Origin: a virus
Strand: one strand, 5' to 3'
DNA: 34,157 bases
Virus record (IMG/VR): IMGVR_UViG_3300027872_000018
Coordinates: 1 to 34,157 of that record
Shown: positions 56 through 28,666 of the stretch, piece after piece
Position numbering within the stretch: position 1 is the stretch's first letter
Layout of the letters: every line of letters begins with the position of its first letter
Position numbers and translations under genes: made by a program
Notes under the pieces: generated by a model
Told to the model about the DNA's origin: nothing
The model's database searches: none
The model's input: the letters and a program-made list of their open reading frames with translations, nothing else

Positions 56-529
56 TCAACTCCTGATCAGGTTGTAGACCGCGTCACCGCAGTCGTTGTT
101 GAGAGACCAGGCGTCACCGCGACGAGCTGCGAACATCGAGTGGCCGTTCTCGACCGCGTACTCAATGTGATCAGACAAAGCCATCTGGTCCCAGGCTTCG
201 TTGATGGCGTCGTACTCGCGCTGCGAGTGATCTTCCTCGTCGAGCAGCGGGTAGTCCTCTAGCGAGGACTGCATCTCGACGAGCGCGTCACCGTGCTTGG
301 GATCCACGAGGAGGATCTCGAACCAGCCGCAGGCCCAGTGGCCAAAGCGGTGGACCTCGACCGTGTCCGACTCGCCACCGAGCTGCTTGAGCGCGGCCTC
401 GAAGTTGGACTCGTCGAGTATGTCGCTGTCGCGGTTGCGGCCCACGGGTGCGACCAACCAATCCTCTCGATCCTCATCGAAGGTTATGTGGTTGTCCCAG
501 GCCGTGGGCTTGAATTCCGAATACTTCAT
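56..529 (-). CDS. Hypothetical protein, 157 aa, acidic
   Basis: I do not recognise a named family. The product is acidic and rich in Asp/Glu and aromatic residues, with one Cys near residue 67 (HWACGWFE) and a second near the C-terminus (NNDCGDAVYN). It has no signal peptide or membrane segment and looks like a soluble cytoplasmic phage protein. It is the fifth complete gene of the leftward operon that starts near 4098. Its ATG is preceded by the block TGAGGTAACGTCATGAAGTA, which is nearly identical to the start regions of the 200-aa and 192-aa genes upstream, so the start is well supported. About 80 nt with a stem-loop separate it from the preceding gene, whereas most genes in the operon overlap. 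Confidence 0.75.
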   Translation of the reverse strand: MKYSEFKPTAWDNHITFDEDREDWLVAPVGRNRDSDILDESNFEAALKQLGGESDTVEVHRFGHWACGWFEILLVDPKHGDALVEMQSSLEDYPLLDEEDHSQREYDAINEAWDQMALSDHIEYAVENGHSMFAARRGDAWSLNNDCGDAVYNLIRS

Positions 530-541
530 GACGTTACCTCA
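529..541 (-). promoter_or_regulatory. Start-associated repeat, copy 1 (TGAGGTAACGTCA)
   Basis: On the minus strand this reads TGAGGTAACGTCA, and its last base is the first base of the ATG at 529. GAGG serves as the Shine-Dalgarno sequence. Identical 13-nt blocks lie at 1213-1225, 1788-1800 and 2675-2687, each at a gene start. A ribosome site alone would need only GAGG, so conservation of the following TAACGTCA is unexplained. Confidence 0.8.
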
Positions 542-584
542 ATATGCCCTGTCTCATCAGTGCGGGTAGGGCGGATCCCGCAGA

Positions 585-604
585 CGAGCCCACTAAGGGG
601 CTCG
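585..604. other. Stem-loop in the 200-aa/157-aa intergenic gap
   Basis: CGAGCCC (585-591) and GGGCTCG (598-604) form a perfect 7-bp stem around a 6-nt loop. On the minus strand no T-run follows, so it is not a classical intrinsic terminator. On the plus strand only a short TTT follows. It sits just downstream of the stop of the 200-aa gene and may be an RNA processing or attenuation element. Confidence 0.4.
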
Positions 605-610
605 TTTCGA

Positions 611-1213
611 CTACGCGTCTGAGCGTGAGCGAATGACCTGGTCCTCAGCGTCGACCACTCGCCAGTCGGTGACCAACGTCCAGCGGCCCATCAGATCCTT
701 GGCAGCAGCCACGGCTGAGTCGATGTCGTCGTACTCGACCTTGTTGCCTGCCCAGGTGCCAGAGCTGTCAGCCTGCACCTCGACGCGCAGCGGCGGGATC
801 GTCATGTGACTGTCCTTAGCCTTCGCTGCGCGCCAGATCTTTTCACACTCTGCCCGGTCGCGAGAGTCTGTGTGGTCGGTGCCACAGGTTGGGCAGATCG
901 GGCTTCGAGGAGAGACTGGGGTCAGATCGTAGGCCACATCATTGTGCACGAGGTTGAGGTAGCCTTTGACCTCCAACCAAGTCAACAGAGGGGCGGCTGA
1001 GTCGGGATCCTCCCGGCCAATCTCCTCGGCGCGAATGAGCCCGGATGCCAGGCGCGGGATCACATAACCTTCAGCGGTCCAGCCGTGATCGTCTTTGCCC
1101 GCGACGAGCACCGCCGTCTCGCAAGTGGCGACGATGCGGTAGTTGCTGGGCAGGTAGCTCGCGATCTGGTCAGCGCGGCTCATGTTGTCGATGTGTACGA
1201 GTATCAGCTTCAT
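611..1213 (-). CDS. Hypothetical protein, 200 aa, with a CPTC motif
   Basis: The protein starts MKLILVHID and has an alpha/beta-looking N-terminal part (residues 1-65). In the middle is a possible metal-binding stretch, CPTCGTDHTDSRDRAEC, which offers three Cys and one His. The C-terminal part (about 140-200) looks like a separate small beta/alpha unit. I recognise the general look of an early-region phage hypothetical but can name no function. The start is fixed by the TGAGGTAACGTCATGAAG block and by a 4-nt ATGA overlap with the stop of the 192-aa gene, which implies translational coupling. Confidence 0.75.
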   Translation of the reverse strand: MKLILVHIDNMSRADQIASYLPSNYRIVATCETAVLVAGKDDHGWTAEGYVIPRLASGLIRAEEIGREDPDSAAPLLTWLEVKGYLNLVHNDVAYDLTPVSPRSPICPTCGTDHTDSRDRAECEKIWRAAKAKDSHMTIPPLRVEVQADSSGTWAGNKVEYDDIDSAVAAAKDLMGRWTLVTDWRVVDAEDQVIRSRSDA

Positions 1214-1788
1214 GACGTTACCTCAGTGGAATTGTTGGGGGAGAAGGCGTTTTGGACTTCCTGGAATTGTTCTTCGATGTAGCTCTTGTCCTGTCCTGAC
1301 CTACGGCAGGCATCGAAGATCGCGGCATCGCGGGGGATGAACTTGACCAGCTCCTTCTTGACCGGGGAGATCGAGAAGCCCAAGAAAGTGTGCTTCTGAG
1401 TGTCGTAATCGTAGGAGGTCGTGGTGTTGAACGCGTTGCGGCTGGCGTTGAAACGCACGGTCTTGAACTTGGTGGGCGTCTCACCTATGACGATGACGAT
1501 CTGCGTGCCTTTGGAGCCAAAGGGAATTTGCGCGTATCTGATCTTGTCCACCACTTCGTCCAGGAGACGCAGTGCTGCGCGAGCGCGTTCTATGAGCACC
1601 TGTGCGTTGCCGCTGCCATTCTCAGGATCATTGCGGAAGCGCCGAAACAAGTGCAGGTTCTCCTGGTTGATCGGATGGTGCAGTCGCCCATCGTGGCACT
1701 CTTGGATGCACCAGGTGAGATCTTTCTCGGGGCGATCTTCCAGCAGTGCTAGTACCAGGCGATAGAGTTCAGTGTGGTCGTACTTCAT
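1210..1788 (-). CDS. Hypothetical protein, 192 aa
   Basis: No family is recognised. The N-terminal half is helical and charged (residues 1-80, with a Leu/Arg-rich segment near 65-80). The C-terminal half contains a beta-rich stretch around IVIVIGETPTKFKTVRF, so the product is probably soluble. The last residues are TEVTS because the coupling block ACTGAGGTAACGTCATGA is read in frame, with TGA as the stop. That stop overlaps the ATG of the 200-aa gene by 4 nt. Its own start overlaps the stop of the upstream PP-loop gene in the same way. The position between an enzyme pair and other hypotheticals gives no clear functional clue. Confidence 0.75.
   Translation of the reverse strand: MKYDHTELYRLVLALLEDRPEKDLTWCIQECHDGRLHHPINQENLHLFRRFRNDPENGSGNAQVLIERARAALRLLDEVVDKIRYAQIPFGSKGTQIVIVIGETPTKFKTVRFNASRNAFNTTTSYDYDTQKHTFLGFSISPVKKELVKFIPRDAAIFDACRRSGQDKSYIEEQFQEVQNAFSPNNSTEVTS
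1213..1225 (-). promoter_or_regulatory. Start-associated repeat, copy 2
   Basis: TGAGGTAACGTCA on the minus strand, ending in the ATG of the 200-aa gene at 1213. The upstream TGA in the block is out of frame with the 192-aa gene, which instead reads through it as TEVTS before stopping. Confidence 0.8.
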
Positions 1789-2672
1789 GACGTTACCTCA
1801 GTGATGTTGACGAGGGGGATGCCCCTCAGTTTCTCTGTCAGGGACACGCCATCGACATGGAGAGTTGAGCGCGTGTCCGCTTCGAGCTGGATGTATTTGT
1901 TGGCCAGGTCAGGGTAGAGCGTGGCCGCATTGCGCAGATCATTCATCGATCCAAAGATGCAGAACCTGCACGAGAGCCGCTGGTTCTTGGTGGCGCGAAC
2001 GCCATCGAATCCATATGCCCAGTGGGGATCCTGACCCGCGTCACGGATCTCGGACCACACATCTTCCAGCTCCCAATTCGCGAGGGGCCACCAGTCGATG
2101 CACTCCCAGGTGCCATTGCTGAATTGCTTCTGGGGCGTGAGCTGGGAGGCGGGACGTTCAGTCACGCGTTTGGCGCGGTTGCCTGACTCAGGGCCACGGA
2201 TCCCTACGCAGTTAACGATGATGCCGGAGTGCATGCCGCGCGCTTTCGCGATCCTCTTGGCATCACGCCAGATGGGTTGAGTCTTCAGCTCCCCGGTGCA
2301 GAAGCGCTCGCTGCCGTTGGGTGAAGCATCGATGTGCTGTCTGCCCTGGTTGTCGAGGCGGGCGCGGTTGCGGTGCACAAGTCCAAAGAAATCCTTGTCG
2401 GATCCATCTTTGAAGAACGCGTGCACAGTGTGCACCGGGTGTTCTTCGCGGACGGTGGCGCGGATGTGATCCAGCGTCCCAGGCCACTCGATGTCGCCCA
2501 GGTCAGCGTGCATCACAATGATCTGGTCAGCGGGGATCCCCAGGCGCAGCAGCGCTAGATACTCGGCCTGGCTGTCCTTGCCACCACTGTGGCTAGCGAG
2601 GAACAGAGCACCGCGAGCGGCTAGTGCTCGTGCCTCTAACAGTCCTGCTATGGTGCGGTTGATGTTGTTCAC
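1785..2672 (-). CDS. PP-loop ATPase, PAPS-reductase/DndC-like family, 295 aa
   Basis: The P-loop-like pyrophosphatase motif SGGKDS is at residues 29-34. It is followed by HADLGD (55-60), CTGELK (125-130), the family motif GIRGPES (157-163) and a CRFC pair (C235, C238). In the PAPS-reductase/ATP-sulfurylase-small-subunit/DndC superfamily the SGGxDS loop binds ATP or PAPS. Separate Cys like those here ligate a 4Fe-4S cluster in DndC-type members. The natural substrate of this phage protein is unknown. The start is GTG at 2672: the repeated start block has ATA where its siblings have ATG, so initiation appears shifted one codon downstream. The gene ends in TEVTS with a 4-nt overlap into the next gene. 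Confidence 0.85.
   Translation of the reverse strand: MNNINRTIAGLLEARALAARGALFLASHSGGKDSQAEYLALLRLGIPADQIIVMHADLGDIEWPGTLDHIRATVREEHPVHTVHAFFKDGSDKDFFGLVHRNRARLDNQGRQHIDASPNGSERFCTGELKTQPIWRDAKRIAKARGMHSGIIVNCVGIRGPESGNRAKRVTERPASQLTPQKQFSNGTWECIDWWPLANWELEDVWSEIRDAGQDPHWAYGFDGVRATKNQRLSCRFCIFGSMNDLRNAATLYPDLANKYIQLEADTRSTLHVDGVSLTEKLRGIPLVNITEVTS
1788..1800 (-). promoter_or_regulatory. Start-associated repeat, copy 3
   Basis: TGAGGTAACGTCA on the minus strand in front of the 192-aa gene. The bases after it (TGAAGTAC) also match copy 1, extending the identity into the first codons (Met-Lys-Tyr) of two otherwise unrelated proteins. Confidence 0.8.
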
Positions 2673-2674
2673 TA

Positions 2675-2687
2675 TGACGTTACCTCA
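2675..2687 (-). promoter_or_regulatory. Start-associated repeat, copy 4, with a shifted start codon
   Basis: TGAGGTAACGTCA on the minus strand; its first three bases are the stop codon of the 288-aa PP-loop gene. The position that is ATG in the other copies is ATA here, and the first usable start is the next codon, GTG at 2672. This should reduce initiation of the 295-aa protein relative to its neighbours. Confidence 0.75.
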
Positions 2688-3551
2688 GTAGCTGTTGGTG
2701 ACTTGGTGGCCGTGCGAGTACTTGTACTCGTCCAGCTCCGCGTCAGTCAGGTGGCCGAATTTTTCCTCGGCCTCGATGAGTTTTACCGGCAGCAATTTGA
2801 CGCCGTATACGCCGTGGTTTTTGGGCCGGTCTGCGAAGCGCGCGATCTTGCGTGCTTCAAATTGTGTCCACTCCGCGAAGCCCTCGGGATCGTTGCGTGC
2901 TCTCCAGAGCAGCTCCGGCATGGACTGGAAGTGGCAGTACTTGCACGTCGAGGGCCAGACCTTGCCAATGATGTCGAAGCGTGCTTCGAGGAATGCTTGG
3001 CACGCTGCGCGGTCCCAGCCCCAGGCGGTTAGCGGGTACTCGCGGACTACGCTTTCGCGCTGCCAGATCCTGGGGAAGTCTTTGCCCAGGCGTTTCTCTT
3101 CGCCTTTGGAGATGCCTATGATCATGCGCACCCTACCGTGCTCGTTAGCGAAGCGGACAAGGTTCTTCTTGCCGGTGTCCTCGACGGGCTCGTCGAGAAG
3201 CACGGCGCACAGAGCATTCAGCCACTTGTAGATCGGGACGATCTTCAGCTTCTCCGTGCATGCTTTGGCGCGGGCTATGTTGACGGTGTCGTTGGCATCC
3301 CAGTACTCCAGAAGCGACTGCCAGGCGGGAGTGTGGTACTGGGATCCGGGGCGGATCCACTCGAAGTGGATGCCTGCGGCTATGCACAGTTGCTGCGCAC
3401 GCGCCACCGTTTCGTAGGTGTGATCCTCTTCGTTGCCGGTGTCCGCGAAGACCACGGCGTTGATGCCGAGCCTGTGCGTCTCCAGCTCTTCGAGGAGGAT
3501 GGCGGTGCTGTCCTGGCCACCGCCAAACGATAGAATCGTTAGACCGCTCAT
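2685..3551 (-). CDS. Second PP-loop ATPase, PAPS-reductase/DndC-like, 288 aa
   Basis: The PP-loop is GGGQDS (residues 10-15), a variant of SGGxDS with Gln in place of Lys. Further motifs are FADTGN (35-40), CTEKLK (98-103), IGISKGEEKR (145-154) and CKYC (C203, C206) followed by HFQSM. The order Cys-T-x-x-LK ... CxxCxFxSM is the same as in the downstream 295-aa protein, so the two belong to one superfamily, although overall identity is low. The three Cys are candidates for an Fe-S cluster. I chose ATG 3551 over an upstream in-frame ATG at 3584 because 3551 overlaps the stop of the 125-aa gene as ATGA and keeps GGAGG about 6 nt upstream. The substrate is unknown. Confidence 0.85.
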   Translation of the reverse strand: MSGLTILSFGGGQDSTAILLEELETHRLGINAVVFADTGNEEDHTYETVARAQQLCIAAGIHFEWIRPGSQYHTPAWQSLLEYWDANDTVNIARAKACTEKLKIVPIYKWLNALCAVLLDEPVEDTGKKNLVRFANEHGRVRMIIGISKGEEKRLGKDFPRIWQRESVVREYPLTAWGWDRAACQAFLEARFDIIGKVWPSTCKYCHFQSMPELLWRARNDPEGFAEWTQFEARKIARFADRPKNHGVYGVKLLPVKLIEAEEKFGHLTDAELDEYKYSHGHQVTNSY

Positions 3552-3925
3552 GCCTTGTCCTCCCAACGAGCACCGAGCACCCAAGTGGAACCGTCAGCGC
3601 GGAGGTGCGCGCCTATGGCTACGTTCCAAGGTGTGGGGTAGTGGTTACGTCGGACTTGGAAGTTCGAGTTGACGCGAGGGTCATACTCGACGCGCTCCCA
3701 AGTGCCCGGTAGGACGTCAGCGCCGGGTGCCTCGACGCCATCGAAGAAGGCGATGACTGAGCGCACGCCGCTGCTTTGGCACTTGGCCTGCCCTGCGGGT
3801 TGGATGCGAGTGGAGACGTCGGTGAGCTTCACCTCTTCGAGGTAGCGGGTCACCTTGCCCTTCTGTGTCTCCACCCACTGCGGTCCACCCTTGCGGGCAT
3901 TGTGGAGGTTGCGATGCACTCTCAT
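3548..3925 (-). CDS. Hypothetical protein, 125 aa, basic N-terminus
   Basis: The product begins MRVHRNLHNARKGGPQW, a basic stretch, and continues with a beta-rich body (WVETQKGKVTRYLEEV ... TWVLGARWEDKA). It is small and soluble, with no recognised catalytic motif. The start overlaps the stop of the upstream 58-aa gene as ATGA, and its own stop overlaps the start of the 288-aa PP-loop gene in the same way, so the three are translationally coupled. Being fused by overlap to the PP-loop genes makes an accessory role to them possible, but this is inference from position only. Confidence 0.7.
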   Translation of the reverse strand: MRVHRNLHNARKGGPQWVETQKGKVTRYLEEVKLTDVSTRIQPAGQAKCQSSGVRSVIAFFDGVEAPGADVLPGTWERVEYDPRVNSNFQVRRNHYPTPWNVAIGAHLRADGSTWVLGARWEDKA

Positions 3926-4098
3926 GAACGGACTCCTCGACCAACGATGCTGCGACCAACAGGGTGCGCGGTGGCGACTACGGTCTTGACCTCGAAGTCG
4001 TTGATGCGCACTGCCTGCGGAGCTGCACGGCGCTGCTCATTGAGATACCAGGCAGTGCAGATGCTCCAAGTGGAGACTGTAAGCAGTAGTTCGATCAT
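3922..4098 (-). CDS. Small hydrophobic-leader protein, 58 aa, first gene of the leftward operon
   Basis: An ATG at 4098 is preceded by AAGGAG with a 7-nt spacer, a strong ribosome site. The 58 codons end in TGA at 3922-3924, overlapping the next ATG by 4 nt. The N-terminus MIELLLTVSTWSICTAWYL is hydrophobic enough for a single membrane segment. It is followed by a basic, soluble tail (NEQRR ... GRSIVGRGVRS), so a small inner-membrane protein with the C-terminus inside is plausible. No family is recognised. It is the first gene after the control region and probably marks the 5' end of the operon. Confidence 0.65.
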   Translation of the reverse strand: MIELLLTVSTWSICTAWYLNEQRRAAPQAVRINDFEVKTVVATAHPVGRSIVGRGVRS

Positions 4099-4110
4099 TC
4101 GTTAACTCCT

Positions 4111-4127
4111 TGACGTTACTGACGTTA
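4111..4127. repeat. Tandem TGACGTTA pair in the leader of the leftward operon
   Basis: TGACGTTA occurs at 4111-4118 and 4120-4127, a 9-bp period. On the minus strand this is TAACGTCA twice, immediately upstream of the AAGGAG site of the 58-aa gene. The same 8-mer is the 3' part of the start-associated repeats at 529, 1213, 1788 and 2675, linking the leader to the internal gene starts. Confidence 0.7.
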
Positions 4128-4143
4128 TCGTCCGGTTGAACCG

Positions 4144-4165
4144 TTAAGCTCGCTAGCGAGCTTAA
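4144..4165. promoter_or_regulatory. Perfect 22-bp palindrome, candidate operator
   Basis: The arms TTAAGCTCGCT and AGCGAGCTTAA are exact inverse complements with no central gap. It lies 46 bp upstream of the first leftward start. In DNA it suits a dimeric repressor. In RNA it would form a 9-bp stem with a CTAG loop. No T-run follows on either strand, so it is not a terminator. Confidence 0.6.
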
Positions 4166-10499: not shown

Positions 10500-10936
10500 G
10501 CAAGCTCGCCAGGCCAACTTCATCCGGTCGCTTCGGTCGTGACATCACCGATGACTACAACGAAATTTCCATCTTCGAGCTGAGTGGCGTCAAGCGAGCG
10601 AAGCTTGAGATGTGGATCGCCAAGAACATCGGCACAGCTCTCGTGAAGTACTACCCGAATCGCGAGTGGGGCGTCAGAGTCGATGTGGAAGGCCGGATGG
10701 TCATCATCACCTGCGACTCGATCTCGCTTAAGAAGGGCTACCACATCCACATGGCAGACCGGAATCTCAACGAGCTGTGCGCTAGGTCCGTACAAGCGGC
10801 GGGCGAAATCTTGGAACGTCATGGCATCTCTCGCAACAAGGCGTTTGATGCCGACATTCTAGAGACGCTCAAGCGTGATTGGGATGGCGAAGTCGTGGCT
10901 AATGATTCAGATGCGAGGATAAGCGGTGCCAACTGA
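10496..10936 (+). CDS. Hypothetical protein, 146 aa, upstream of portal
   Basis: The start at 10496 overlaps the stop of the 127-aa gene. A longer in-frame extension to 10310 exists but would lie inside that gene and has a different composition, so it is rejected. The sequence looks like an alpha/beta domain (residues 20-75, with strands around WGVRVDVEGRMVIITCD) followed by helices (NLNELCARSVQAAGEILERHG). No motif is recognised. The stop falls 10 nt inside the portal start region. A head-completion or packaging role is possible from position only. Confidence 0.65.
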   Translation: MSKLARPTSSGRFGRDITDDYNEISIFELSGVKRAKLEMWIAKNIGTALVKYYPNREWGVRVDVEGRMVIITCDSISLKKGYHIHMADRNLNELCARSVQAAGEILERHGISRNKAFDADILETLKRDWDGEVVANDSDARISGAN

Positions 10937-13271
10937 CCAAACACAAGGCGACGACAATCCTGAATTCGTAGGACGCGGTGCAACGCAGCGCGGGATCATG
11001 GACGACCCGCAACATCCGACGAGCCCGAGCGCGATTGAGCCGAAGCTCGATCCGCAGCACCAGGCGGGCGCACCGTACCAGCGTGGGCCAGGTGACATCC
11101 CACCAGGTGAGACACCACCGAGTGATTCACCTGGTGGATCCAACTACGACGACGCCGAGGAAAAGGAGGGCAAGGAGTTCTTCGCGCAAGCTCCGGCTTG
11201 GTTGATTGCGAAGGCGCACGAGATCTACACGACCTCGACCGACTACCTCGATGCAAACATCACCAACACCTGGGAGCGCACGCTCTCGCACTTCAACAGT
11301 GAGCATGCACCGCACTCGAACTTTAGGCGCAAAGACTTCCGGCGCTCGCGTGTGTTCCGACCGAAGTCACGCTCCTCGACCAAGTCGGCGGAAGCGGGGC
11401 TCACCGTGGCCGCGTTCTCAACTCAAGACGTCGTCGACATTCAGCCCGACGATAATCGGGATCCCATCCAGCGGATCTCTGCCGAGGTCAACAAAGAGAT
11501 TCTGCAATACCGCCTAGACCGGAGAATGCCCTGGTTCCAAACCGCACTCGGCGGCTACCAATCGACCAAGGTCTATGGACTGTGCATCTCGTTTCAGTAT
11601 TGGAGATACGAGGCGGACATCGACTACGAGCCTGCCATCGACGACGACGGCAAGCTCATGCAGGACGACGATGGCAATGCGCTCGGTTACAAGGTGCCGC
11701 TGGTGCGCAAGGACGAGCTGGCCTGTGATCTGATTGCACCGGAGAACTTCCGCTTCGATCCGATGTGCGACTGGCGCGATCCGGTCAACACCTCGCCCTA
11801 CCTCGTGTACATGATGCCCGTCTATGCCGGTGAAGCGTTGGAGAAGATGGAGCAGATCAATCCGAACACTGGTAAGCCTTACTGGAACAAGCACGCTCTT
11901 GGAACGATCCTCGCCACACGACGCAAGAACTACGACAGGACTCGCCAGGCGCGCGAGGGGCGTGAGCGCATTGACCCGGCAGACGAGCAGCACGGTAACG
12001 CGTACACGATGCTGTGGGCTCACATGAACATCTCCAAGGTCAACGGCGAAGACATCATGTGGTGGACGATGGGCACCGAGATCCTGCTGACCAATGCAGT
12101 GAAGCTCACCGATCAATTCCCACATCTAGAACGAGGTGAGCGTCCATTCACAGTTGGCTTCTCCACCATCGAGGCATTCAGAAACTATCCCGCAGGTGAC
12201 CTTGAACAGATGGCTGGCCTGCAAGAAGAAATCAACGTCATCGCCAACCAGCGACTCGACAACGTGAAGCTGGTGCTCAACAAGCGCTACTACGTTAAAC
12301 GTGGCGCGCAAGTCGACCTAGATGCACTTATCCGAAACGTGCCAGGCGGCGGCGTGATGATGAACGATCCCGAGAAGGACGTGCAGACGGTCAACACACC
12401 CGACATCACCTCGTCGAGCTACCAGGAGCAAGATCGCCTGGCGGTGGAGTCTGATGAGCTGGTGGGTACGTTCAGCCAGTCCTCGGTGCAGTCGAACAAG
12501 AACCTCAACGAGACTGTCGGCGGCATGTCGATGGTGAGTCAGACTGCCGGTTCGGTTTCGGACTACGCACTGCGCATCTTCTTCGAGACCTGGATGGAGC
12601 CGACACTCAAGCAGCTCGTGAAGCTCATCCAGATGTACGAGACAGACGAGACGATCCTTACGCTCGCGGCCAATAAGTCGCAGCTCTGGGTACGCTACGG
12701 CATGAGTGAGATCACCGATGAGCTGTTGAAGCAGGATCTCACTGTGCGGGTCAACGTCGGCATCGGTAACACCGATCCCGTGAGGCGAGTGGAGAAGCTG
12801 ATCTTTGGCGTGACCAAGACCGCCGAGCTGCCGCAGATGGTTGCGCGTATGAAAGCGCCTTCAGTGGCGGACGAGATATTCGGTGCGCTCGGCTACAAGG
12901 ATGCATCTCGCTTCTTCATGACCGACCAGGAGTTCGAGCAGGATCAGCAAGAGAATCCGCCTGGGCCACCGCCTGAGATAGAACTCAAGCGTGAGGAGTT
13001 CCAGATTCGGCGCGAGGATAACCAGTTGCGTCACCAACGCGAGCTTATGAAGCTCGACCTGGAGGCCACGATTGGTTTCGCTCGTATCGCAGCCGAGAAA
13101 GAAATCACTCTCGAGAAATTGTACGAGACACTCAATTTCGACAGAGAGAAATTGCAGACGACGCGCCAGGTCGCCGCGCTAGACAACACCACTAAGGTGC
13201 GCGAGTTAGGCGAGGCGCGTCGGGAGAGACAACAACGACCAGCACAAACTGCTGGGGGAGAGAGTAAGTGA
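10926..13271 (+). CDS. Portal protein, 781 aa
   Basis: This is the dodecameric ring at the head vertex through which DNA is packaged. The N-terminal 85 residues are Pro/Gly/Asp-rich and probably disordered. The core follows with typical portal features: ITNTWERTLSHFNSE, a clip/wing region, the sequence PFTVGFSTIEAFRNYPAGDLEQMAGLQEEIN and a long ring-forming helix. The C-terminus from about 670 is a charged coiled coil (ELKREEFQIRREDNQLRHQRELMKL is its start), comparable to the barrel/tail helices of large portals. The large size is nearer to N4/SU10-like portals than to T7. GTG start with AGGA 6 nt upstream. It sits between packaging genes and the scaffold, as expected. Confidence 0.85.
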   Translation: MPTDQTQGDDNPEFVGRGATQRGIMDDPQHPTSPSAIEPKLDPQHQAGAPYQRGPGDIPPGETPPSDSPGGSNYDDAEEKEGKEFFAQAPAWLIAKAHEIYTTSTDYLDANITNTWERTLSHFNSEHAPHSNFRRKDFRRSRVFRPKSRSSTKSAEAGLTVAAFSTQDVVDIQPDDNRDPIQRISAEVNKEILQYRLDRRMPWFQTALGGYQSTKVYGLCISFQYWRYEADIDYEPAIDDDGKLMQDDDGNALGYKVPLVRKDELACDLIAPENFRFDPMCDWRDPVNTSPYLVYMMPVYAGEALEKMEQINPNTGKPYWNKHALGTILATRRKNYDRTRQAREGRERIDPADEQHGNAYTMLWAHMNISKVNGEDIMWWTMGTEILLTNAVKLTDQFPHLERGERPFTVGFSTIEAFRNYPAGDLEQMAGLQEEINVIANQRLDNVKLVLNKRYYVKRGAQVDLDALIRNVPGGGVMMNDPEKDVQTVNTPDITSSSYQEQDRLAVESDELVGTFSQSSVQSNKNLNETVGGMSMVSQTAGSVSDYALRIFFETWMEPTLKQLVKLIQMYETDETILTLAANKSQLWVRYGMSEITDELLKQDLTVRVNVGIGNTDPVRRVEKLIFGVTKTAELPQMVARMKAPSVADEIFGALGYKDASRFFMTDQEFEQDQQENPPGPPPEIELKREEFQIRREDNQLRHQRELMKLDLEATIGFARIAAEKEITLEKLYETLNFDREKLQTTRQVAALDNTTKVRELGEARRERQQRPAQTAGGESK

Positions 13272-17056: not shown

Positions 17057-17380
17057 ATGGCTGAGTTCAACCCCGAGCTTCCTTACGCGACGATCCGGCA
17101 CATCAGCGGCAAGGTGCAGTACTCACAGCTCGGCACGGTGTTCACGCGTAAAGGTGTCGAGGTTGGCCCGGATTCCAACTACGAAGCACCGAAAGAGCCC
17201 GAGCCCGAGGAAACGAGCGGCTTGCTCACTCAAGCTGCTAACGAAGAGCAGGCGCAAGAGAACCAACGCTCGGAGACATTGCGACGAGCTGCTGCGAAGT
17301 TGAGCGGTGTACCTCAAGACGTGATCGATGCACGTCGAGAGAACATGGCTGCGCTTCAGGCTGAGGAGAAAGCTGAATGA
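17057..17380 (+). CDS. Hypothetical protein, 107 aa
   Basis: Residues 1-40 look folded (YATIRHISGKVQYSQLGTVF); a Glu/Pro spacer (PKEPEPEETSG) follows, and then a charged helix with many Ala/Glu (NEEQAQENQRSETLRRAAAK). AAGGGGG precedes the ATG. It overlaps the adaptor start by 4 nt. A head-tail connector accessory is possible from its place directly before the adaptor. Confidence 0.6.
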   Translation: MAEFNPELPYATIRHISGKVQYSQLGTVFTRKGVEVGPDSNYEAPKEPEPEETSGLLTQAANEEQAQENQRSETLRRAAAKLSGVPQDVIDARRENMAALQAEEKAE

Positions 17381-18105
17381 GTACGTTCCTGGAGCTGGTT
17401 CAACAGTTGCACACGCAATCAGGTGCAGCAGGTGCAGCACCCACAACGGTCGTTGGTCAGACCGGTGAAGATGGGCGCATGGTGGATTGGATTCAGGAAG
17501 CAGATAACTACATTCAGAACCATTGGCTCAACTGGAAATTCTTGTGGAACCAGGTGTCGCTTTCTACAGCGACGGGTGTTGTTAGTTTGAGTCCACCAAC
17601 GGATCTCAACTTCTGGGACTTCAAGACATTTAAGCTCAACGATCCGAGTGTCGTCGGTGCTATCGACGAGCCACTCGGATTTCTTGAGCACGACTCTGTC
17701 AAGTGGTTGATACGCGATAACAGTCAAGACCAACCTTCGCGTATCATCCTGATGCCTGACAACTCGATTGAATTTGAACCTGTGCCTGATGCGGTTTACA
17801 CCATCAAGGCCGACTACTTTCGAGCGCCCACCTTATTGGCGGCTAATACGGATGTCTCATTGATCCCTGAGACATTTCATCCAGCCATTCTGGGATATGG
17901 CCTGATGCTCTATGCGAACTACGAGAACGCACCGGAGATCATGGCACAAGGTCAGCGAACCTTTGGCCTCTTCATGCCCAGGCTGGAAAACCATCAGTTG
18001 CCGAATCAACGCTTCTCTCGCTACCAGTCGACCGGCAGCTTCTTCGACGTCAGTGCCAGCGGGGATCTCGATTCCGCTGGTGGCTTCGCCGTTGGTAACA
18101 TTTGA
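17377..18105 (+). CDS. Head-tail adaptor (T7 gp11/SU10-adaptor-like), 242 aa
   Basis: Adaptors form the ring under the portal in short-tailed phages. The N-terminus MSTFLELVQQLHTQSG, followed by MVDWIQEADNYIQNHWLNWKFLW, has the pattern of these proteins: a helical start in which paired Trp and Asn surround a long helix. A beta-sandwich part (residues 65-140) and a C-terminal helical hairpin (PETFHPAILGYGLMLYANYENAPE) follow. The flexible tail is Ser/Gly-rich. Its position just before the nozzle gene is the expected one. Confidence 0.75.
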   Translation: MSTFLELVQQLHTQSGAAGAAPTTVVGQTGEDGRMVDWIQEADNYIQNHWLNWKFLWNQVSLSTATGVVSLSPPTDLNFWDFKTFKLNDPSVVGAIDEPLGFLEHDSVKWLIRDNSQDQPSRIILMPDNSIEFEPVPDAVYTIKADYFRAPTLLAANTDVSLIPETFHPAILGYGLMLYANYENAPEIMAQGQRTFGLFMPRLENHQLPNQRFSRYQSTGSFFDVSASGDLDSAGGFAVGNI

Positions 18106-20817: not shown

Positions 20818-23706
20818 ATGGCTAACACTTATTACAACTTTGGTGGTCCGTTCATTCCGAACACCAAGGTACGTTCGGGACAAGTCAATCCAGAATTTGA
20901 AGGTGTCGAGAGCGGCTTCGATCTCCTGCCGAGTGCAAGTGATGCGCTCACGCGTGGCGTCGTCGAGCTGGGTATCGATGTGCAGGGTGGCACGGTCAAC
21001 GAGTACGACGTTGGGATGCCAGACACTCGACTCACTAACCAGGAAGGTGACCTGGTCGTCTTCCGTGCGACTCACACCAACGACGGTGCTGTCGTCATCA
21101 ATGTCGACACCATCGGTGACATCGCTGCAGTCGAGTTCGATGGATCCGTATTCGCAGGCGGCGAGATCGTCACGGGACGCGTGTACGAGTTCCGCTACGA
21201 CAACGCGAACACCCAGTTCGTTCTCTCGCAATCGACCGATGCAGCCAACCAGGCGATCTCTGCAGAGGATTGGGCGATCCGGCCAGAGGATGACCCCGTG
21301 CCGGTCAGCTCGGGTGGTGATGGCTCCACGACGTTCTCCGCGCTGCACTGGTCCGCGAAGTCGGCAGCGTTCGGCGGCGGGCTCGACTTCTTTGGTGACC
21401 ATGACGCGAGCAGTGGGGATCCGGCCTCACCCGCGACAGGCAATCCTCTCTACCGGATCTCGGTAGCGGGCACGATCACAGGCGCGGGTGCGGTTGAGAT
21501 TGGTGACGACATCTACTGGAACGGTGTCGACTGGAATCGCATCAACAACCAAGGCACTGTGTTTGTCGCAGGCACCAGTGCTGACGATCCGACATCACCA
21601 GGCACATTCGATTCCAACTTAGAGTGGCAGAACGTCAGTGGTGCTCCACTCGCGAATGTTGGGTACAACACTGATGACGTGTTCGCGCTCATCAGTCGCG
21701 TGCATGGCGGCGGCTTACGTTTGGCTGGTGAGGCTTCGGGTGGAAGTGTAGAGACCTACCTGACGGGTAACGATGGTGCAGGTACGACGCTTCACTTCGC
21801 GGGCTTGCAGAAGTTCGCGACCGCATTGGCTGGTGTCATCATCAATGACTCAACGACTAACGATCCGACAGCGGGTCTAGGTCAGTCTGCGCTGATCAAC
21901 CTACGCAATGGATCGTTTGCACCCGTAGCTGACTTCGGGTTTCTCGCAGCGGCCACTACGCTTCGGGTTAAGAACTTCGTTCACGGCGGACCTCTCAGCC
22001 TTCTAGGGGAAGCATCCGCTGGTGCCGAAGTCACATTCGCTGTTTTCGATCCTTCGAGCACGGGTAACCGGATTTTTCACAACTCTACGCAACCGGGGTT
22101 TCGTGTCATTCAGACGACGAATCTCGGGATAGATGTTTACAACGATTCTGCAAGTGCCACTGCCCGTACCTCTTTAGGTTTGGTGCATGCTTTTACTGAT
22201 GAGTACATGCTCAACATCGAGGGAGATCCTGTCACCAATGTTGTTGAAATGCTTGTTGGTACGGATCGAAGAGCACGTCTCGACATCTATGCAACAGACA
22301 CCGCACTCAATCAGGTGCTCATGGCTGATTTCGATGCGCAGGCTGGTCCTGTTCGTCTATATCACTCCGATGCTGCAGGTACGACCGAGATCGCTCTTTC
22401 CACGACAGCACTCGGTGCCGATGTTCGCGCACCTTCCGGGATCGTTCCTACGCTCACGTTGACTGAAGCCTCGACCGTCCTAGCCACACTCAATCACGAG
22501 ATCATAGCTTCTGGAACCGACAACCTGGTTCTTCGCAACGAGGCTGACTCGGGCTTCATTGAGCTGCGCGGACGCAATAGCGCCAGCGGCGATGCGCTCA
22601 TGGCTGATTTCGATCCCGATGGCTCATCGCGTTTGTATTGGGATGAGAACCTGCAACTGCGCACAGCCTCTATTGGCCTGGAAATAATTGGTCGCGGTGC
22701 AGCGAGTGCGGCTGTTCGATACTTCGCGAGCAATGGGACGACTTTGATAGGTCTCATGAGCTTCGGTTCCACCGTGTCGTTCCAGAGCAACCCCAATGCA
22801 ACGAACGACGGTGCGAACTGGCAGTTCCAAGGAGTAGATGCAGGTGGTGTAGGCCGCATCATGCAGATCATGGATCCTGATGCGGGCGTTGCACTCCATG
22901 TGTTAGGTGTTCGAGGATTTTTGACGCGGACTAACGACGTTCAAATCATTCCCACAGTCACTGCGAACTTAGCCAAGCTTCAGCTCACAGGACTGCTCGG
23001 CACGCCTGTTCAAGCCAATATCGGTTTCGATGGTGGCACTGCTCTGGAGATTCGCAACCTCGTCGACGGTGGCGCAATTGAGATCAGAGGTGACACGGGT
23101 GCAGGTGCAGAGACGTTGCTTGGTGTGTTCGATGCAGACACAGGCTTTCAGCTCAACCACACGGACGGTTTGATCAGAGCCCGTAGCGCGACGACTGGTA
23201 TATTTGTACGCGGTGATGGAGCAGCGAGCGCCAGTCTTTTCCTAGAAGGTTCAGGAGGGGTTTTAGTCGCGCAGATAGACGTCGGTGCCGTCTTTGACAT
23301 CTACAACCTCGTTGACGGGATCAATATGCAAATACGCGGGAATGACGCTGGAACTGTCATTCGCACAATGATTGACATGGACCCCGACAACGATCTTGAC
23401 ATTTATCATCCTTCAGCAGGCACGGTTAACATTCGCACAGTCGTCGCCGCTAGTGGTGGAGCCACGGTCAACAACGCGCTTACCGGTGCTGGTCTTGAAC
23501 GTGTGCTGACTGCATCCGATGGTATAGCAACAGCGACGACAACCGAGCTGGCAGACATCACGGATGCGATCAACACGGGTGCTCGGAAGGTAGCCGGGTT
23601 TGAAGTTTTCAACACGACAACCAGTATCGTAGTTTGGGCTGTCGGTGCTGCTGACGGTAGCCTGTGGCTTAACGCTACCGGCGCGACAGCGCACACACCG
23701 GTATAG
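20818..23706 (+). CDS. Tail fibre/receptor-binding protein with irregular beta repeats, 962 aa
   Basis: Residues 1-170 form a virion-anchoring N-terminus, beta-rich and ending with the collar-like segment AEDWAIRPEDDPVPVSSGGD and SALHWSAKSA, often seen near the start of phage fibres. From about 288 the chain is built of imperfect modules with a core like L-x-x-x-N-x-V-x-G-G-x-x-x-I-x-G (copies near 288, 382, 464, 570, 743 and 828), consistent with a trimeric beta-fibre. The C-terminus (IVVWAVGAADGSLWLNATGATAHTPV) may be the tip or trimerisation part. Host specificity is therefore likely set here. Confidence 0.8.
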   Translation: MANTYYNFGGPFIPNTKVRSGQVNPEFEGVESGFDLLPSASDALTRGVVELGIDVQGGTVNEYDVGMPDTRLTNQEGDLVVFRATHTNDGAVVINVDTIGDIAAVEFDGSVFAGGEIVTGRVYEFRYDNANTQFVLSQSTDAANQAISAEDWAIRPEDDPVPVSSGGDGSTTFSALHWSAKSAAFGGGLDFFGDHDASSGDPASPATGNPLYRISVAGTITGAGAVEIGDDIYWNGVDWNRINNQGTVFVAGTSADDPTSPGTFDSNLEWQNVSGAPLANVGYNTDDVFALISRVHGGGLRLAGEASGGSVETYLTGNDGAGTTLHFAGLQKFATALAGVIINDSTTNDPTAGLGQSALINLRNGSFAPVADFGFLAAATTLRVKNFVHGGPLSLLGEASAGAEVTFAVFDPSSTGNRIFHNSTQPGFRVIQTTNLGIDVYNDSASATARTSLGLVHAFTDEYMLNIEGDPVTNVVEMLVGTDRRARLDIYATDTALNQVLMADFDAQAGPVRLYHSDAAGTTEIALSTTALGADVRAPSGIVPTLTLTEASTVLATLNHEIIASGTDNLVLRNEADSGFIELRGRNSASGDALMADFDPDGSSRLYWDENLQLRTASIGLEIIGRGAASAAVRYFASNGTTLIGLMSFGSTVSFQSNPNATNDGANWQFQGVDAGGVGRIMQIMDPDAGVALHVLGVRGFLTRTNDVQIIPTVTANLAKLQLTGLLGTPVQANIGFDGGTALEIRNLVDGGAIEIRGDTGAGAETLLGVFDADTGFQLNHTDGLIRARSATTGIFVRGDGAASASLFLEGSGGVLVAQIDVGAVFDIYNLVDGINMQIRGNDAGTVIRTMIDMDPDNDLDIYHPSAGTVNIRTVVAASGGATVNNALTGAGLERVLTASDGIATATTTELADITDAINTGARKVAGFEVFNTTTSIVVWAVGAADGSLWLNATGATAHTPV

Positions 23707-23717
23707 AGGTGAATTAG

Positions 23718-25136
23718 ATGGCAGAAGATTTCTTACCCGAAGGAGGCGTTGAGCCTTTTACTCCTGGTGAGTTTGATATTGATCCTGTAACAGGTCTACC
23801 GGTTGAACAGCAGCCGCCGCCGACGACACAACCACCACCGACGACTCAGCCGCCACCCGACACAGGGGGAGGTGGAGGAGGTGGAGGAGGTGGAGGTGGA
23901 CTACTCTCAGGTGCGGCGGATGCGGTAGCGTTTGATGAGGGCGGCGAGCCTTCGGTTCAGGATCTCTACTCGGAGCCGGTGGATGTAGCAGTTGCGGAAG
24001 CACCCGAAGGTGTGACTGCGACCGAGGCCGGAACGCAAGACGCGGTAGCAGGTGTCGTCGACACACCAGGTGTCGCTGCACCGACTGGTGGTGATGCAGC
24101 GAGTGCGCTTGCATCGGGCTACGATCCCGAAAAGATCGGTGTCGGTGATGAGATGACCGTGGCCGGTCAGCTCGAAAGTATCACTGGAGCTGACTCTCCG
24201 TTGATGCGACAGGCCCGACAGAAAGGCATGCTCGAAGCAGCTCGTAGAGGCTTACAGAATTCCAGCATTGCAGCCGGTGCAGCTCAAGGTGAGACCGTGC
24301 GGCAGGCATTGCCGATTGCGCAGCAGGATGCATCAACTTATTTCCAGGCAGCTCGGGACAACATGGCTGCGGCTAACCGAGCTTTGGAGTTCGGTGCGAG
24401 TGCGGAGAACGTCGCGGCACTCACCAACGCTGCCGAGCAGAACCGCATCACCGCGCTCACCATGTCACTCGGCACCGATGTCTCGAAGTTCAACGCAGCT
24501 CAGTTGAATCAGGCCGAGGTCATCAACGCACAGATGCAGACTGCGGTAAGTCAGCAGAATGCCGAAGCATACAACAAGGCGCAGCAGCAGCTCGCGCAGT
24601 TGCAGACATCTGCGGATCTCACGAGCGCGGATCAGAACTTCCGTGCGAGCTTGCAGGCGGTGGACACGACCAACCGGATGAACCAGCAGATCCTGGCGCA
24701 GAACTCTGCGATCAATCAGCAGTACCTGGCAGGCACACAGGCACGCGATCTCGCTACGATCCAGGGACAGTACCAGCAACTCATCTCGACCAACGAGACA
24801 GCGGCGACACTGTTCAACTCTTACTTCACCGGGATCTCGGGGATCATGGCCAACAAGGACATCTCTCCCGAGCGTGTGGCCCAGTACATCAACGTGCAAC
24901 AAAACATGTTGGAGTCGTCGCTCAAGTTCATGAGTGAGATGAACACGCTCGACCTGGGAGACATCCAATTGCCTGGTGCGGGAGTGGTGGGAGCAGGCGG
25001 TGGAGCTGACATCTTTCCGACAGGTGGTGGGCCTGGGACGGTGACAGAGAATCCACCAACAGTAGCGGCAGGTACTGGTCCCGATGAAGCAGAGCAGTAC
25101 CTTGAACAGATAGGTGGGGTAGGTGCGCTCGTATGA
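23718..25136 (+). CDS. Internal virion protein with Pro/Thr repeats and poly-Gly, 472 aa
   Basis: The N-terminus contains PPPTTQ in tandem and a run of 12 Gly (residues 50-61, DNA 23865-23900), followed by an Ala/Val/Glu-rich disordered stretch to about 150. From 150 to 390 it is one long helical domain rich in Ala, Gln and Asn (ALPIAQQDASTYFQAARDNM and similar), like the ejected core proteins of podoviruses. The C-terminal region is again Gly/Pro-rich. GAGG precedes the ATG. The place after the fibre and before other internal proteins supports the call. Confidence 0.65.
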   Translation: MAEDFLPEGGVEPFTPGEFDIDPVTGLPVEQQPPPTTQPPPTTQPPPDTGGGGGGGGGGGGLLSGAADAVAFDEGGEPSVQDLYSEPVDVAVAEAPEGVTATEAGTQDAVAGVVDTPGVAAPTGGDAASALASGYDPEKIGVGDEMTVAGQLESITGADSPLMRQARQKGMLEAARRGLQNSSIAAGAAQGETVRQALPIAQQDASTYFQAARDNMAAANRALEFGASAENVAALTNAAEQNRITALTMSLGTDVSKFNAAQLNQAEVINAQMQTAVSQQNAEAYNKAQQQLAQLQTSADLTSADQNFRASLQAVDTTNRMNQQILAQNSAINQQYLAGTQARDLATIQGQYQQLISTNETAATLFNSYFTGISGIMANKDISPERVAQYINVQQNMLESSLKFMSEMNTLDLGDIQLPGAGVVGAGGGADIFPTGGGPGTVTENPPTVAAGTGPDEAEQYLEQIGGVGALV

Positions 25137-25564
25137 TCATTCGACCGGCAACGCTCGCGGATCGTGACGCCATCTTTGAGATAGCGATGGAGCAAGCTGA
25201 ACTCTATCCTCGCTTGCGCCCGAACGTGGACAAGATCAAAGCGCTCATCGTTGAATCGATCAGCTCGGCACGGCACTACTCGTTAACGACTTATCACGAA
25301 GGCAAGCTAGAAGGTGTGTTGGTCGCGTTCACCCAGAACAACGCGTGGGCACAACGACAGAACTGTGCGGTGATGTTATGGGTGTCTAAGTATCCGTGTG
25401 CAGGTGCGCAGATGCTGCGCATGTTTCGTGACTGGGTGAAGGGACGACGCGCGATCAGAGTTGCGGGCTTCGCACCGGATGTGAATCTGGATCCGCGTGT
25501 GTGGAAGCTCGCAGAACGAATTGGATTTGATCCCCACGGTGGGGCGTATCTGCTCTACAACTGA
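25133..25564 (+). CDS. GNAT-family N-acetyltransferase, 143 aa
   Basis: The start MIIRPATLADRDAIFEIAMEQA is the typical beta1-alpha1 of GNAT enzymes. Then follow a beta2-4 sheet (YSLTTYHEGKLEGVLVAFTQ, CAVMLWVSKYP), the acetyl-CoA region (PCAGAQMLRMFRDWVKG, a degenerate form of the QxxGxG/A loop) and the C-terminal ERIGFDPHGGAYLLYN. Length is standard. Small GNAT proteins recur in structural gene blocks of podoviruses; the substrate is unknown. It overlaps the preceding gene by 4 nt. Confidence 0.8.
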   Translation: MIIRPATLADRDAIFEIAMEQAELYPRLRPNVDKIKALIVESISSARHYSLTTYHEGKLEGVLVAFTQNNAWAQRQNCAVMLWVSKYPCAGAQMLRMFRDWVKGRRAIRVAGFAPDVNLDPRVWKLAERIGFDPHGGAYLLYN

Positions 25565-25572
25565 GGTGGATG

Positions 25573-26490
25573 ATGGGAATTCTTAAGAGCATTAAGAAGG
25601 GTTTTAAAAACGTCTTCAAGGGCATCGGCAAAGTCTTCAAGAAAGGCCTGGCTTTCGTTGGCAAGATCACGCAGTCCAAGTGGGGCAAGATCCTGATGCT
25701 TGCGGCGACGGTGTTCACTGGAGGCATGGCACTTGCGGGCGGCATCGCAGCGTTCGGCACCTCGGCTGCAGCAGGCGGCACGTTCATGACCAACTTTGTA
25801 GCAGGCGCAAGCGGTTTCATGACGGCACTAGCGAGTCCGGTTCAGCAAGCACAGAAGATGTTAGGTGGTGCAGCCACGGCTGGAGAAACAGCGACCGCCA
25901 TCACCGCTGCTTCACAAGCAAAGGCACCACTCGAAGCACTGCAAGGTGCTACCGCAGCAGGCCAACAAGTAGGAACCGGTATAGCCGGTGCAGGTGAAGC
26001 GATACAAGCAGCAGGTGGAGCTACATCAGCGCTTCCAGGTCAAGCTGCAGCCGGAGTCGGCGGTGCCGGAATCGGCGGCGGTGGTGGAACCACTGCGCTC
26101 GACATTGCGGGAGGAGCTGCCGGTAAAGGTGCGAAGGGTCTAGACCTGGCAAGTAAGATCGGTCCTTCCCAAGTAGGGCAAGGAGGCAACTGGTTGACCA
26201 ATGCCATCAAGGCAGGAACGGATTTCGCTAAGACACCAGCAGGTGCCAAGATGCTCGAACATTTCGGTGCCGGAGGCGCACGCGAAGCCGAGATGGATAA
26301 GTACATGAAATTTTATGATCGTTATCGCAGAGCGTGGCAGAACCCCGACAATCCGGTTCAACAAATGCTCGCGCAAGAAGGCTCCTTCGACATCGATGTG
26401 CCGGAAGGTTACCTCGGACGACGCGTTGGCAACCCGGCACAGATCCGCGATCAGTTTGAGCCGACGATCCCGTTCTCCAGGGGAGGATAA
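25573..26490 (+). CDS. Membrane-active internal/ejection protein, 305 aa
   Basis: I use ATG 25573 rather than 25570 because GAGG (25563-25566) then has a 6-nt spacer. The N-terminus GILKSIKKGFKNVFKGIG is basic and amphipathic like a pore-forming peptide. A long Ala/Gly-rich hydrophobic stretch follows (ILMLAATVFTGGMALAGGIA and beyond, about 38-80), and then Gly/Ala-rich low complexity. The C-terminal part (MDKYMKFYDRYRRAWQNPDN) is helical. This layout is common for podovirus internal proteins that breach the host membrane during DNA entry. Confidence 0.7.
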   Translation: MGILKSIKKGFKNVFKGIGKVFKKGLAFVGKITQSKWGKILMLAATVFTGGMALAGGIAAFGTSAAAGGTFMTNFVAGASGFMTALASPVQQAQKMLGGAATAGETATAITAASQAKAPLEALQGATAAGQQVGTGIAGAGEAIQAAGGATSALPGQAAAGVGGAGIGGGGGTTALDIAGGAAGKGAKGLDLASKIGPSQVGQGGNWLTNAIKAGTDFAKTPAGAKMLEHFGAGGAREAEMDKYMKFYDRYRRAWQNPDNPVQQMLAQEGSFDIDVPEGYLGRRVGNPAQIRDQFEPTIPFSRGG

Positions 26491-26493
26491 GTT

Positions 26494-27177
26494 ATGGGTC
26501 AAGCCAGTCAACCACCACCAGGCGGCGGCGGACTACTTCAACAAGCCGCACAGAAAGCGGCTAGCGTGCCGCCGCCTGCAGCACTCCAACAACCTCCTGG
26601 TGGTGCGCCACAGCCAGGTGCACAACCTGGTGCAGCTCCAGGTGCACCTGGTGCACCACCGGAAACGCAACCACCGGGCTCACCTGTACCGGGTCCGACA
26701 GTTGCGCAGCCCACACCGACTGACATCTCTGGCATGGAGATGCCTGGTGAGGAAGCATCAGCGGCAGAGGAAGAAGAGTTGGTGCGCGCACGCGAAGCAT
26801 TGGAGCGGATCCTCTACGACAGCGACGAGCTGTCGAACTCTCTCATGGGTCAGATCAATCCCGAGGACAAGATCGGAACGACGACCAAGGCCACTGTGCT
26901 ACTCATCAATCAGATCGATGACAAGATCGATTTAGACGAGGCGATCATTGCACCGTTCACCATGGAAGCGGTGGATCGTCTTGCCGAGCTGGCTGAGACG
27001 CGTCACGGTTTCGAGTACTCCGAGCAAGAGCTGCAAGCAACACTCGGTGCAACCTGGGAAGGTGTGATGACAATGTTCGGTGTCGACGAGAACGACTACA
27101 AGCGTTTCGTCTCCGGGATCGGTGAAGATCAGATGGGCCAGCTCAAGACACAACACGAGGGATTCCTCCGTGGGTAA
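26494..27177 (+). CDS. Internal virion protein with Pro/Gln/Gly-rich N-terminus, 227 aa
   Basis: Residues 1-75 are Pro/Gly/Ala/Gln repeats (such as GGAPQPGAQPGAAPGAPGAP). Residues 85-227 form an acidic helical domain (ARLR-type pattern around EEEELVRAREALERILYDSD, then DDKIDLDEAIIAPFTMEAVDRL). The ribosome site is GGAGG at 7 nt. It lies between the membrane-active protein and another Pro-rich protein, so an ejected virion component is likely. No specific family is recognised. Confidence 0.6.
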   Translation: MGQASQPPPGGGGLLQQAAQKAASVPPPAALQQPPGGAPQPGAQPGAAPGAPGAPPETQPPGSPVPGPTVAQPTPTDISGMEMPGEEASAAEEEELVRAREALERILYDSDELSNSLMGQINPEDKIGTTTKATVLLINQIDDKIDLDEAIIAPFTMEAVDRLAELAETRHGFEYSEQELQATLGATWEGVMTMFGVDENDYKRFVSGIGEDQMGQLKTQHEGFLRG

Positions 27178-28663: not shown

Positions 28664-28666
28664 CCA

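Follow-up and report, generated by a model that had tools for sequence, protein, structure and literature searches.

A repeated translation-start block and a type II hammerhead ribozyme in the leftward operon of an uncultured phage

What role is played by a 13-nt sequence that stands unchanged at the starts of four genes of one viral operon? The question was raised by the leftward operon of IMG/VR record IMGVR_UViG_3300027872_000018, which was analysed over its entire length (34,157 nt, hereafter the window; probably a fragment of a genome). A first-pass annotation had noted the repeat, TGAGGTAACGTCA, and had argued that letters conserved beyond the need of the ribosome imply another role. We consider it moderately probable that this block forms the translation-start half of a junction module that can be reused, in which the stop codon of one gene, a type II hammerhead ribozyme, a Shine-Dalgarno (SD) sequence and the start codon of the next gene follow one another.

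The start block and its copies

Exactly four copies of the 13-mer were found in the record, all on the minus strand and at the leftward gene starts at which they had been annotated (Table 1), with no copy elsewhere in the 34,157 nt. The block is absent from the other leftward starts (51, 3551 and 3925; that at 4098 has AAGGAGTTAACGA) and from all 25 rightward starts listed in the window. It consists of an SD, GAGGT, and a spacer, AACGTC, ahead of the start codon. In the copies at 529, 1213 and 1788 the ATG overlaps the last base of the block, which runs into it as TGAGGTAACGTCATG. Copy 4 (2675) has ATA where the others have ATG, and its gene starts with a GTG three bases on; despite the moved start codon, the 14-mer TGAGGTAACGTCAT is intact there. 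Identity is longer in three copies, to ACTGAGGTAACGT, and in three it reaches TCATGAAG. As annotated, the two genes upstream of copies 2 and 3 read the block as their C-terminal residues, TEVTS. The argument for a role beyond ribosome binding concerns only the leading T and AACGTC, which need explaining; GAGGT is an ordinary SD core. Chance or convergent similarity of ribosome-binding sites (RBSs) could draw on the five of 13 letters that are SD and on the neighbouring start-codon letters; this origin is excluded by the presence of the 13-mer in four identical copies and nowhere else in the record, the seven letters outside the SD being alike too.

The shorter TAACGTCA occurs six times in the record, in the four blocks and in the two tandem half-copies that had been reported in the operon leader (0.47 copies expected; none of 100 shuffles reached six). 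Block and half-copies might be the sites of one phage regulator, either a set of DNA operators resembling the stoperators of Cluster A mycobacteriophages or an RNA site for a repressor of translation like RegA of phage T4. In the operator version, the leader would hold the sites next to the promoter, and those at gene starts would block transcription. The six TAACGTCA are all found in a single operon and on its transcribed strand, copy 4 has stayed intact although its start codon moved, and the 13-mer comes close to dyad symmetry (5 of 6 symmetric pairs, binomial p = 0.005), a property that was weighed as proof of an operator but retained only as support. Against such a regulator, which we regard as unlikely, every copy of the block has an SD spaced from a start codon as initiation requires. 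No consistent pattern of SD sequestration by folding was seen over the four window blocks.

The hammerhead ribozyme and the proposed junction module

A type II hammerhead (Rfam RF02276), missed by the first-pass annotation, abuts copy 1, with one base between its end and the start block of gene A; in relatives, such ribozymes are the partner of a repeated start block. The match covers the full model (1-66) and scores 37.6 bits against a gathering score of 37. It has the CGAAA and CUGAUGA core, an NUH cleavage site, closed stems I and III and an open stem II, and its loop I can form a pseudoknot of 5 bp with the tail (GCCCU at 568-572 with AGGGC at 546-550). Self-cleavage of this RNA is predicted between 583 and 582 (GUC^U). 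No further hammerhead was matched by the Rfam model in the window up to an E value of 10.

Table 1. Features of the leftward operon and its leader in the window.
Feature	Position	Strand	Remarks
Gene A, 157 aa, PHROG 4313	56-529	-	start block copy 1
Start block copy 1, TGAGGTAACGTCA	529-541	-	gene A; SD GAGGT 536-540; ATG 527-529
Type II hammerhead ribozyme	543-612	-	stem III hairpin 585-604; stem I 561-582; CUGAUGA 554-560
Stop codon TAG of gene B	611-613	-	overlaps ribozyme 5' strand; ribozyme begins inside TAG
Gene B, 200 aa	611-1213	-	start block copy 2; ends at ribozyme
Start block copy 2	1213-1225	-	start of gene B; read by gene C as TEVTS-stop
Gene C, 192 aa	1210-1788	-	start block copy 3
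Start block copy 3	1788-1800	-	start of gene C; read by gene D as TEVTS-stop
Gene D, 295 aa, PAPS-reductase family	1785-2672	-	GTG start at 2672
Start block copy 4	2675-2687	-	TGA 2685-2687 is stop of gene E; start displaced to GTG 2670-2672
Gene E, 288 aa, second PAPS-reductase family protein	2685-3551	-	ordinary RBS
Gene F, 125 aa, Phage_L5_gp82 family PF25735	3548-3925	-	ordinary RBS
First gene of leftward operon, 58 aa	3922-4098	-	RBS AAGGAGTTAACGA
Two TAACGTCA half-copies in leader	4111-4127 (4111-4118, 4120-4127)	-	just upstream of first SD
Perfect 22-bp palindrome TTAAGCTCGCTAGCGAGCTTAA in leader	4143-4164, +/- one base		from sequence

The full module would thus comprise, in order, an upstream stop codon overlapping the hammerhead, the ribozyme, the pseudoknot tail and, as its 3' half, the translation-initiation block. 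At the junction between genes B and A (613-527) it is complete. The transcript would be expected to cut itself there, leaving the gene B mRNA with a 3' hairpin and giving the gene A mRNA a short 5'-OH leader that bears its own SD; hammerhead cleavage would in this way turn polycistronic RNA into single-gene pieces and may affect their expression. The other three junctions have the start block alone. Initiation at these is probably coupled to termination, because the block overlaps the end of the upstream gene, and it is possible that a ribozyme has been lost from them. The block itself would spread within a genome by copying, every lineage having its own version.

Repeated start blocks in related and other phages

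Terminase homologues 66-78% identical to that of the window were found in IMG/VR, with a further one, G016, at 76%. None of the terminase relatives searched carries the 13-mer in its exact form. Gene D is kept by G002, G010, G014 and G016, all without the exact 13-mer where searched, and gene F by G009, G010 and G014 as well as by L245, a locus without a terminase match. The first-pass annotation had proposed to judge the block by its rarity away from start codons and its presence in relatives with the same genes: it is indeed not frequent elsewhere, but relatives that keep gene D or gene F lack the exact sequence. IMG/VR scans for TGAGGTAACGTCAT and GGAGATCTGACATG gave single chance-level matches only and no sibling phage with the same block, and a search for related loci using gene D alone returned no relatives. 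Assignment of a host by terminase was tried and given up, the best 80 matches in bacterial genomes being at most 55% identical and mostly from Pseudomonadota.

Relatives with the same genes carry a different repeated block at the starts of the same operon, and therefore no widely conserved factor reading TAACGTCA is implied. In G009, AACTGGAGATCTGACATG stands at the starts of the homologous divergent operon, in three full copies and one of GGAGATCTGACATG only, without a ribozyme. Upstream of one of its start blocks (L113:18150-18260), GTCGAAACCCGG and a GC-rich hairpin look like part of a hammerhead that lacks the CUGAUGA core. Nine hammerheads lie in one operon of G006, eight of them within 4.6 kb (L121, which is G006 23587-30263); TCTCAGGAGA is common to five of the nine post-ribozyme starts and TCTCGATTGATTGGAGATATG to two. 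Over five copies, the stretch from stem I to the start is 70-95% identical, against mostly 14-43% in the 44 nt upstream (one pair 73%). The loop I-tail pseudoknot comes in two subtypes in this genome, with a compensatory change between copies (UAUCU/AGAUA to AGUCU/AGACU). This repeating unit of ribozyme and block is compatible with a possible role as a recombination seam, which the first-pass annotation had considered. Tandem repeats of 21 nt in G005 and G006 were also looked at; they look like a coding repeat unrelated to the start block.

Among the other relatives, G016 (L252) has four hammerheads by motif (three by the Rfam model), followed by variants of AACGCAAGGAG(TTAACGCA)ATG, G002 (L107) has three by motif (two by the Rfam model), followed by AACGCAAGG, and G014 has one. 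Relatives whose terminases are 67-76% identical to that of the window have the arrangement of ribozyme and start block at many gene junctions, each genome with a block of its own. The RBS of the first gene in the window, CAAGGAGTTAACG, has 13 letters in common with one post-ribozyme block of G016. The RBSs of G010 are ordinary and unrelated, and the Rfam model finds no hammerhead there. One ribozyme-bearing start together with ribozyme-less copies of its block, the arrangement of the window, recurs in L410, L324, L338 and L356. In another phage (L052:4855-8748), a start block GGAGTAACCA(CC)ATG is repeated, its core in seven copies on one strand, and GTTTGTGACATCATGTCACAAAC palindromes run along L225:4885-13507, some at possible ATG starts.

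The same comparison bears on the regulator. In L245, the leader of the gene F operon contains two TGACAACGTCA dyads (5532, 5565), which speaks for a regulator, and the remainder of the 12.4 kb contains no other; the gene starts of L245 have no such dyad. Moreover, relatives that keep the genes have unrelated blocks, the G009 block is seen within its leader only where it serves the first gene as RBS, and the blocks of L410 and L324 show no dyad by eye. In L245 (5532-5575), the first dyad lies between TTGACA and TACGGT hexamers 17 bp apart, and the dyads are followed by GGTCGCAGCGACC; a similar GGTCGCTGCGACC is found in the leader of G010.

It is quite improbable, in our view, that the copies are recent neutral duplicates, a good RBS having recombined to several genes with its spacer not yet diverged. 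They are identical amid unrelated flanks, with identity extending in three of them to ACTGAGG or ATGAAG, and the blocks are genome-specific in all lineages seen, as such duplicates would be. Yet the sequences that border the block directly have diverged completely, so pieces of only 13-20 nt would have to have been copied repeatedly. In addition, several relatives show independent recurrence of repeated start blocks, and hammerhead loci are enriched in them.

A pattern scan of IMG/VR for type II hammerheads, combined with a stem-checking script, yielded at least 183 distinct ribozymes at at least 117 loci; the counts below refer to the hammerheads listed and, for pairs of start blocks, to the matches listed. 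The stop codon of an upstream open reading frame (ORF) begins 4-8 nt before CGAAA in 116 of 171 cases, compared with 49 of 2068 control CGAAA sites (2.4%). In the commonest arrangement (43 hammerheads) the stop overlaps stem II, as in UAGUCGAAAC. The next start codon mostly lies 20-40 bases past CUGAUGA, usually with an SD. A loop I-tail pseudoknot of at least 5 bp is present in 56%, against 6% with shuffled tails. When post-ribozyme 18-nt start blocks were compared, 30% of the pairs within a locus but 0.9% of those between loci shared at least 9 nt, and so did 2.8% of pairs formed with other SD starts of the same locus. Judged by sequence, the post-ribozyme start block is specific to its genome, and in several loci it is also found at ribozyme-less starts, as in the window.

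The position of the stop codon also suggests a variant in which processing is gated by the ribosome. At most phage junctions the upstream stop falls inside or right next to the 5' strand of the ribozyme; because of this, a terminating ribosome would sit over stem II and the first part of stem III and permit cleavage only once it leaves. Cutting of the mRNA would then be timed to translation of the upstream gene, and the downstream gene would be handed a freshly cut leader with a genome-specific start block. We regard such gating as doubtful, though worth considering.

The junction module is supported by the ribozyme match with its intact core and pseudoknot, by the recurrence of the arrangement at successive junctions of terminase relatives, by the position of the upstream stop codons and by the genome-specific start blocks. 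Several observations weigh against it. Of the four blocks in the window, three lack a ribozyme, and no remnant of one could be established at these: the best local scores are 14.0, 13.0 and 10.5, against a background with a 95th percentile of 13.0, a 99th of 13.9 and a maximum of 14.5, so that a candidate remnant at block 1225 was suggestive without being significant. The fold of 515-615, which leaves out the pseudoknot and the core, is no more stable than shuffles (z -0.37). Identity of 13 out of 13 letters, which takes in spacer positions unpaired with 16S rRNA, exceeds what an RBS needs, and the two TAACGTCA of the leader stand before the SD and not after it. In favour of the module, SD 10-mers repeated at three or more starts are enriched in the hammerhead loci listed (11 of 120, against 1 of 201 other viral loci; p = 1.2e-4), but the control loci were unmatched in gene density and this result is supportive only.

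In the leader, the palindrome TTAAGCTCGCTAGCGAGCTTAA may be operator-like from its sequence; it lies close to two TTGACT hexamers. The leftward operon is probably early. Two PAPS-reductase-family genes, D and E, are adjacent in it, and relatives keep one or both together with gene F, of the L5 gp82 family. Elsewhere in the window, the portal and adaptor genes (10926-13271, 17377-18105) match the phage SU10 models PF23899 and PF24175, which suggests an SU10-like podovirus, and residues 986-1126 of an ORF that runs off the record (28667-34156, at least 1830 aa) form an inorganic pyrophosphatase domain (PF18823).

Comparison with known systems

Type II hammerheads (RF02276) with clustered copies flanking genes have been described in prophages, together with the loop I-tail pseudoknot of the class, and RNA processing was suggested for these clusters (Perreault et al. 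2011, PMC3088659). The ribozyme class, its permuted form, the pseudoknot and the presence of several copies flanking single genes of phage transcripts are shared with the phages considered here. The differences are that each ribozyme is here tied to a genome-specific SD and start block, and that the stop codon ending the upstream gene shares bases with, or adjoins, its 5' strand; in PMC3088659, a text search found no mention of stop codons, Shine-Dalgarno sequences or ribosome binding.

The first-pass annotation had likened the block to the start-associated sequences (SAS) of Cluster K mycobacteriophages, and the analogy fits in form. As described by Pope et al. (2011, PMC3203893), these are 13-bp elements of unknown function in 11-19 copies; about half of them have an extended SAS (ESAS) upstream, which is an imperfect inverted repeat of 17 bp. 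Both are asymmetric 13-nt blocks in one orientation that contain SD letters along with conserved letters unable to pair with 16S rRNA, a few nt from the start codons of non-structural genes. The window block differs in sequence, TGAGGTAACGTCA being unrelated to the SAS consensus GGGATAGGAGCCC, in its four copies, in its upstream element, which is a hammerhead and not an inverted repeat, and in not being conserved at homologous genes of the terminase relatives searched.

The L5 stoperators of Cluster A mycobacteriophages are repeats of 13 bp that all point one way and lie close to gene boundaries; related sites stand in the operon leader. The window block shares these properties; in contrast, it has an SD inside every copy and only four copies in one operon. 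Stoperators also stand at the early promoter, and of the window block an 8-9-nt core recurs in the leader. Stoperators are bound by a phage repressor, and none was identified in the 34-kb record. They are mentioned in the Cluster K study (PMC3203893).

Hammerhead arrays and start-associated sequences are thus each known already, while their combination and the stop-codon overlap were not found described; the literature searched was mostly without subscription papers, and novelty is not proven. The role of prokaryotic hammerhead ribozymes has been described as an open question (PMC6155905). If blocks and ribozymes are halves of one module, this role and the function of SAS become testable together, and phage operons would be built of cassettes of ribozyme, start block and gene, with mRNAs cut to single-gene units. 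The frequent stop-codon overlap is a concrete constraint, for which models of hammerhead function in phages have to account.

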